64,000 nt of DNA from Mesotoga sp. Brook.08.105.5.1 (GTDB lineage Bacteria > Thermotogota > Thermotogae > Petrotogales > Kosmotogaceae), in NCBI RefSeq assembly GCF_002752635.1, contig NZ_AYTW01000031.1, positions 1 through 64,000 of the forward strand. Reading direction: 5' to 3'. The number at the start of each line of letters is the position of its first letter. Positions within the stretch are counted from its first letter, which is position 1. Positions 1 through 368 of the stretch are shown here, piece after piece. Position numbers and translations under genes: made by a program. The notes beneath the pieces are model-generated. The model saw nothing but the letters and a program-made list of their open reading frames with translations. It was not told the DNA's origin and searched no databases.

Positions 1-46
1 CAAAAGCAACAAGTCCTATAAGCAAAACTGCAAAAATCTTCTTCAT
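1..46 (-). CDS. Start of a small secreted peptide gene (partial, runs off left edge)
   Basis: Reading leftward from base 46, an ATG is preceded by GGGAGG at good spacing. Only 15 codons are visible, starting MKKIFAVLLIGLVAF, which looks like a signal peptide. It is nearly identical in pattern to the signal peptide of the complete gene at 90-236 (MKKIVAIILLGLVAF). It is therefore probably another member of the same small-peptide family. The mature part is outside the window, so neither its length nor its function can be judged. Confidence 0.7.
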   Translation of the reverse strand, partial: MKKIFAVLLIGLVAF

Positions 47-89
47 TAAAACAACCTCCCTTAATCCCAACAGGCTAAGTGTAGATAAA

Positions 90-236
90 TCAATGACCTT
101 CAGGAATCTTCCACAGACCCGGTCCACCATCAACGGTTATCTCGTCCTCGGGGATCTTCCAGAGTCCAGGTCCTGCAAAAGCCATACTTCCAAAAGCAAC
201 TAAACCCAATAGAATGATCGCAACAATCTTCTTCAT
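90..236 (-). CDS. Small secreted peptide with duplicated GPGLWKIPE motif (48 aa)
   Basis: A 48-codon gene with a clear GGAGG site nine bases before the ATG. Residues 1-21 form a typical signal peptide ending SMAFA, so export and cleavage would release about 27 residues. That mature part holds GPGLWKIPE twice (about residues 22-30 and 38-46), separated by DEITVDG. A further paralogous start lies downstream (1-46) and a related, possibly broken copy upstream (291-368), so this looks like an operon of short secreted peptides. I do not recognise the family. A signalling, toxic or envelope-binding role is conceivable, but the sequence does not decide between them. The gene is below the size most gene finders report. 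Confidence 0.75.
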   Translation of the reverse strand: MKKIVAIILLGLVAFGSMAFAGPGLWKIPEDEITVDGGPGLWKIPEGH

Positions 237-290
237 CCAGTACACCTCCAAATCAGTCAACTTCCTTTTTACCTTCTCGATTCACCGTTG

Positions 291-368
291 CTAATGCTCG
301 TCTTCTTCAGGTATCTTCCACATACAATGCACCCCCTCGGTCAAGTGTTTGAGCAATAATGCGTACAT
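291..368 (-). CDS. Possible third WKIPE-family mini-gene (25 aa or shorter, possibly decayed)
   Basis: An open frame of 25 codons ends in MWKIPEEDEH, the same core motif as the 48-aa peptide downstream. The first ATG (base 368) has no convincing ribosome binding site. An internal ATG at base 323, just before WKIPE, follows GAGGGGGTG at ideal spacing and would give a 10-residue peptide. In another frame the bases just upstream read G-G-A-L, resembling the GGPGL before the motif in the intact gene, so this may be a frameshifted remnant of a longer peptide. It is either a real micro-ORF or a decaying paralogue. Confidence 0.4.
   Translation of the reverse strand: MYALLLKHLTEGVHCMWKIPEEDEH

Follow-up and report, generated by a model that had tools for sequence, protein, structure and literature searches.

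A family of tiny Trp-Pro-acidic peptides encoded beside a TPR-HD-GYP protein in Mesotoga and its relatives

Mesotoga and related genomes contain a genuine family of very small peptides that gene finders overlook and that have a Trp-Pro-acidic motif in common. The peptides are always encoded beside one particular cytosolic enzyme, which joins a TPR region to an HD-GYP domain, a pairing that suggests control of a cyclic-dinucleotide signal by a peptide switch. The two genes represent a well-supported candidate peptide-receptor pair in the Thermotogota, whose output would be a second-messenger enzyme. The peptide motif is probably the ligand of the neighboring cytosolic TPR-HD-GYP protein, such that binding would alter HD-GYP activity and the peptide level would set the level of the cyclic dinucleotide.

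The window, which is the whole stretch of 64,000 nucleotides analyzed, represents contig C31 of a 3.0 Mb Mesotoga genome (G000), and its start is the contig end. Positions 1-323 of the minus strand contain three short genes in a row, separated by spacers of 54 and 43 bases and each provided with its own Shine-Dalgarno sequence. The first gene (ATG 323..291, minus strand) encodes the 10-residue micropeptide MWKIPEEDEH, which has no signal peptide. Its Shine-Dalgarno sequence GGGGGTG is located at 336-330 (minus strand), and the upstream alignment of seven Mesotoga genomes showed a conserved block, ACTCAAACACTTGACC-GGAGGTG, around this site. The second gene (ATG 236..90, minus strand; Shine-Dalgarno GGAGGTG at 249-243) is complete and encodes precursor 1, a secreted precursor of 48 residues, MKKIVAIILLGLVAFGSMAFA followed by GPGLWKIPEDEITVDGGPGLWKIPEGH. 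By direct reading, its predicted signal peptide (residues 1-21, 174..236, minus strand) ends with A-F-A before GPG, and the predicted mature part GPGLWKIPEDEITVDGGPGLWKIPEGH begins exactly at GPG after this plausible A-x-A cleavage site. The motif search located GPGLWKIPE at 147..173 and again at 99..125 of the minus strand. Precursor 2 is cut by the end of C31, leaving its first 15 residues, MKKIFAVLLIGLVAF (ATG 46..1, minus strand). A fragment at the end of contig C17 (G000:C17:133140-133199) encodes the C-terminal 20 residues of an additional copy, and a TPR-HD-GYP gene (G000:C17:131430-133106) comes immediately after it. Given this fragment, the assembly break between C17 and C31 most likely fell in the repeat, and the rest of precursor 2 is probably located at the end of C17.

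The initial annotation of this region had reported three frames, two with signal-peptide starts and one ending in MWKIPEEDEH, and a complete gene exporting about 27 residues with a duplicated GPGLWKIPE. All three frames are present, all on the minus strand, and the predicted mature part of precursor 1 has 27 residues with two copies of the motif. The third frame is no damaged secreted gene; it encodes a leaderless micropeptide in its own right, which is invariably the first of the array. The description of the family as secreted holds for most of the peptides, which have signal peptides, but not for the leaderless micropeptides.

Full-length precursor matches were found in nine of ten Mesotoga genomes, with E values down to about 1e-31, and in one genome of another Kosmotogaceae genus. 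The order of the array is constant in the sister genus and in the Mesotoga genomes with a resolved locus: the 10-mer comes first and is followed by one to four precursors. Four precursors in tandem are present in G001 and two each in G003, G004 and G007. G009 has one complete precursor and one with an internal deletion (G009:C18:149265-149358, locus L039), which fuses the signal peptide out of frame to the last motif. To judge from this deleted copy, the array copies appear to undergo loss and gain. The micropeptide leads the array in G001, G003, G004, G005, G006, G007, G009, G010 and G014, in the variants MWKIPEEEDH, MWKIPEEDDH, MWKIPEEEEPH and MWKIPEEEEPQ, and as MWKVPDDEEE in G010 and G014. 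The micropeptide is present in G010, where an assembly gap interrupts the precursor gene.

In the pairs that could be measured, dN/dS of the mature part was about 0.01-0.1, indicating strong purifying selection, and the signal part evolves faster, with a dN/dS of 0.1-0.3 where measurable. These values and the nine Mesotoga genomes bear out the earlier proposal of a tandem tiny-peptide family conserved in the Thermotogota. As had also been proposed, no known family accounts for the peptide, which gave no meaningful match in Pfam or NCBIfam, and the genes lie below the usual annotation limits. No earlier report of either the peptides or the TPR-HD-GYP receptor was returned by the literature searches. 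The reversed control pattern gave no matches, and the motif test on random sequence gave none in 2 Mb, a result that is only supportive, as the expression was fitted after examples had been seen. Short and repeated genes could also represent a DNA or RNA element that is untranslated and open by chance. This explanation is extremely improbable, since the mature protein sequence is retained despite strong divergence at synonymous sites, the ribosome sites are kept, and the diverged Kosmotoga genes share with those of Mesotoga only the protein motif. The Rfam search of the array region gave no match.

Three Mesotoga genomes have a second, unlinked site downstream of a conserved protein of 243-245 residues, at which MWKIPEG or MWKIPEGE follows an ATG (G000:C60:22787-22803, G004:C71:34842-34858 and G009:C21:13418-13434; L139, L138 and L140). 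A further micropeptide is possibly encoded here, although the ribosome site is weak. Mesotoga also contains a dispersed DNA repeat with the core GTGGACCCGTCCTTGGGAAGA (G000:C30:935, C32:2877 and C52:16003, with similar copies in G007 and G006). The additional matches of the generic pattern in Mesotoga arose from this repeat and were rejected as motif copies. Weak peptide matches in long frames of Kosmotoga-like, Petrotogaceae and other genomes (L016-L018, L022-L024 and L027) were attributed to chance in unrelated longer proteins.

The TPR-HD-GYP gene, which the initial annotation missed, is adjacent to the array and convergent with it (tail-to-tail) wherever both lie on one contig. In G003 and G007, this pairing is kept although the genes beyond the HD-GYP gene differ. 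Conservation of the motif across Thermotogota genomes had been set as a check; the peptide family was found in 15 of 103 such genomes, and the TPR-HD-GYP family in the same 15. Both are absent from two other members of the Kosmotogaceae, one of which is only 78% complete. Convergent genes are not co-transcribed, and adjacency is therefore weaker evidence than a shared operon would be. The TPR profile was likewise found in 15 of the 103 genomes, all of them Kosmotogaceae, and a scan of the genome-contig collection with this profile, the reach of which is limited by its pattern step, returned Kosmotogaceae/Thermotogae records only. The neighbors of the array are the HD-GYP gene and chromate-transporter genes. 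In the sister genus (G014 and G010), the other flank of the array has a gene for a further TPR protein, which is related to the receptor but has no HD-GYP domain.

The TPR-HD-GYP protein is about 560-590 residues long. It has its TPR region at the N-terminus, its HD-GYP domain at the C-terminus and, by inspection, no signal peptide. The HD-GYP domain matched Pfam HD_5 (E = 2e-35), and its HD, HHER and G-x-GYP residues are invariant or nearly so among 16 aligned proteins. The HD residues and an HHERxxGxGYP signature of the HHExxDGxGYP type are intact, and hydrolysis of c-di-GMP would be the candidate activity. In the TPR region, the invariant residues N155, N193 and K232 recur about every 38 residues. 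The AlphaFold model of the receptor, built with 16 relatives, consists of a TPR-type alpha-solenoid and an HD-GYP domain (mean pLDDT 84.5). Its best Foldseek matches were HD-GYP phosphodiesterases, including the c-di-GMP-bound DvhD, and also TPR proteins. The solenoid matched MalT domain III and the Rap of phage phi3T, among others, and many other TPR proteins match similarly.

The relation between motif and receptor was followed in four Kosmotoga-like genomes (G011, G012, G015 and G016), which have six TPR-HD-GYP genes. Downstream of the receptor orthologues, on the opposite strand, leaderless micropeptides are encoded: MLMMGPGMWQIPDEEEEFDPT in G011, MRMIPTPMGSPGLWAVPVEDEELGEV in G012, MFTVLMGPGMWTFPDDDDKLED in G015 and MFTVLMGPGMWVFPDDDDKLED in G016. 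A genome-wide search for PG-x-W-xx-P-x-(E/D)(E/D) gave six matches in the four genomes, each at a distance of 55-93 bp from where a TPR-HD-GYP gene ends (3' end); the reversed pattern gave none. The pattern was designed after the first examples had been seen, and its genome-wide specificity is an independent result. Four of the matches are in the leaderless micropeptides, and two are the C-terminal tail of an exported barrel-like protein. The latter two belong to G011 and G012, in which a separate locus encodes a diverged paralogue of the HD-GYP protein that shares 36-38% identity with the protein of the window organism. The gene facing the paralogue encodes an exported protein of 434-446 residues, whose model consists largely of beta-strands and has a moderate mean pLDDT of 67. 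Its last residues are PGMWLDPEED or PGAWLDPSED, which form a disordered tail past the last strand in the model. In G015, the barrel gene is in the same place, the paralogue is absent between it and a gene that was named prepilin peptidase by inspection of its sequence, and the tail reads SPDGMWLAGE. The tail motif has, as far as the sequences tell, decayed where the paralogue is absent, which is a single event. None of the Petrotogaceae homologues of the barrel protein has the motif.

These results bear on a role of the peptides outside the cell, in envelope binding, in the toga or as antimicrobials, in which case the HD-GYP neighbor would reflect mere inherited gene order. Synteny between Mesotoga and the sister genus does extend in part to the peptidase C69-like and MBL-fold genes on the far side of the HD-GYP gene, as such inheritance would predict. 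An outside role is nevertheless very unlikely, since an HD-GYP paralogue at an unrelated locus carries its own motif, the motif decayed where that paralogue is absent, every genome-wide match in the Kosmotoga-like genomes adjoins a receptor gene, and several peptides are leaderless. The antimicrobial role considered in the initial annotation is also unlikely in view of the composition and setting of the Mesotoga peptide, which is acidic and free of cysteine, whereas bacteriocins are cationic or cysteine-rich with an immunity or exporter gene nearby; neither gene adjoins the array.

For the ligand explanation, the sequences suggest that motif and receptor most likely bind each other. The ligand core would be Leu/Met/Phe-Trp-x-x-Pro followed by acidic residues, usually preceded by Pro-Gly, and it would be held in the concave groove of the TPR solenoid, with the invariant N155, N193 and K232 as the putative binding site. 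Binding would change the activity of the attached HD-GYP phosphodiesterase, and the amount of cytosolic peptide would thereby set the level of a cyclic dinucleotide, c-di-GMP being the most likely candidate. The leaderless micropeptide would be the source of the cytosolic ligand. The extra copies in Mesotoga and its sister genus, exported precursors with two motif units each, would perhaps let the signal report on neighboring cells or on export. What counts against the ligand explanation is that one cell would make both cytosolic and exported versions of one ligand. A broader claim, on which we are evenly inclined with some leaning toward doubt, is that a single linear motif is read by the TPR-phosphodiesterase fusion whether its carrier is a micropeptide, a secreted precursor with repeats or an exported barrel protein with the motif in its tail. 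If true, this would be an undescribed class of peptide signaling outside the Firmicutes, in which the level of a second messenger is set directly by a genetically encoded peptide. With a 10-residue ligand and one soluble receptor protein, the idea is directly testable.

A stronger form of the ligand explanation is a pheromone of the Rap/Phr type: the precursors would be exported, cut outside to GPGLWKIPE-type peptides, taken up again through an oligopeptide transporter and detected by the TPR-HD-GYP protein, placing the cyclic dinucleotide under control of cell density. The clear signal peptides, the two motif units per precursor and the up to four tandem precursors are consistent with this, duplicated units are known from Phr precursors (PMC11343458), and the Thermotogota have another large TPR-like family divergently paired with short secreted peptides. 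The same array, however, also makes a cytosolic copy of the motif, no dedicated transporter gene was found adjoining the array at the locus, and the Kosmotoga-like relatives have an intact receptor and only cytosolic, leaderless peptides. A pheromone role of the secreted peptides is therefore possible but rather doubtful in this full form. As the peptides of those relatives are all cytosolic, the peptide-receptor pair does not depend on export; export may make a private switch a shared one, or report on export. The latter function is central to another explanation, in which unexported precursors or barrel protein accumulate and the motif is bound in the cytosol by the TPR-HD-GYP protein as a sensor of export status. 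The two motif carriers beside HD-GYP paralogues are indeed barrel-like proteins that are exported and end in a disordered tail with the motif, and the receptor itself has, by inspection, no signal peptide. Such a sensor is unlikely, given that the leaderless peptides, present in all these genera and never exported, would keep it occupied.

Quorum sensing in which peptides act through TPR receptors has been described in the Firmicutes. There, the RRNPP(A) pairs likewise consist of a short peptide gene beside a cytosolic TPR protein, with repeated units in the secreted precursors, and Rap receptors act by protein output and not only as DNA-binding regulators, as the Mesotoga receptor would. The model and Foldseek matches predict a cytosolic TPR-type receptor here too, and an adjacent small propeptide with an export signal is present in Mesotoga and the sister genus, with the Kosmotoga-like peptide being leaderless. 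The Thermotogota pair differs in its leaderless versions, its convergent gene order and its output, a C-terminal HD-GYP domain instead of an HTH or the N-terminal bundle of Rap. As to sequence homology with the RRNPP receptors (Rap, Rgg, NprR, PlcR, PrgX and AimR), the Pfam search gave only weak generic TPR matches, with Rgg_C insignificant (E = 0.088), and the receptor profile search of solved structures matched consensus TPR and PilF and no RRNPP receptor. Because its receptor has no sequence match to those of RRNPP and its output domain is a different one, the peptide/TPR-HD-GYP pair is not an RRNPP member; by analogy, it would work like Rap/Phr.

Some TPR domains read short linear motifs, for example, carboxylate-clamp TPRs with EEVD tails. 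The present case resembles these in the TPR groove, the acidic peptides and, in two cases, the C-terminal placement, but the core differs in its Trp and Pro, and several peptides extend past the acidic run. The HD-GYP phosphodiesterases PmGH (4mcw) and DvhD (9rbz) have the same catalytic domain fold and motifs, whereas the Mesotoga protein has a TPR solenoid as its regulatory part, and a peptide motif is genetically linked to it. In Vibrio vulnificus, rcbAB encodes TPR-domain proteins that modulate c-di-GMP (PMC12282931), which likewise links TPR proteins to c-di-GMP control; the abstract of that report mentions no small peptide ligand. The published large-scale RRNPP survey covered Firmicutes genomes (PMC10075063). 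The present loci illustrate that a conserved neighbor can reveal genes of 10-25 codons.

A separate TPR-like family of about 480-600 residues, sometimes with an HTH, occurs throughout the Thermotogota, in 57 of 103 genomes and with up to about 16 matches per genome. Its Petrotogaceae members showed no detectable relation to the TPR-HD-GYP receptor. In about 19 of 30 loci (L157-L186), it is divergently paired with a gene for a short secreted peptide, mostly of 40-54 residues (for example, L157:2988-3119, L165:1112-1267, L168:954-1097, L176:2953-3102 and L186:2801-2941), and radical SAM or ABC transporter genes are located near some of these loci. This arrangement looks like peptide signaling of the RRNPP kind outside the Firmicutes. 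Three clusters in the Petrotogaceae (L019:1176-1605, L021:1874-2400 and L026:512-1280) have a short secreted peptide beside short cysteine-rich peptides, or beside radical SAM and PqqD-like genes, and are possibly modified-peptide (RiPP) clusters.
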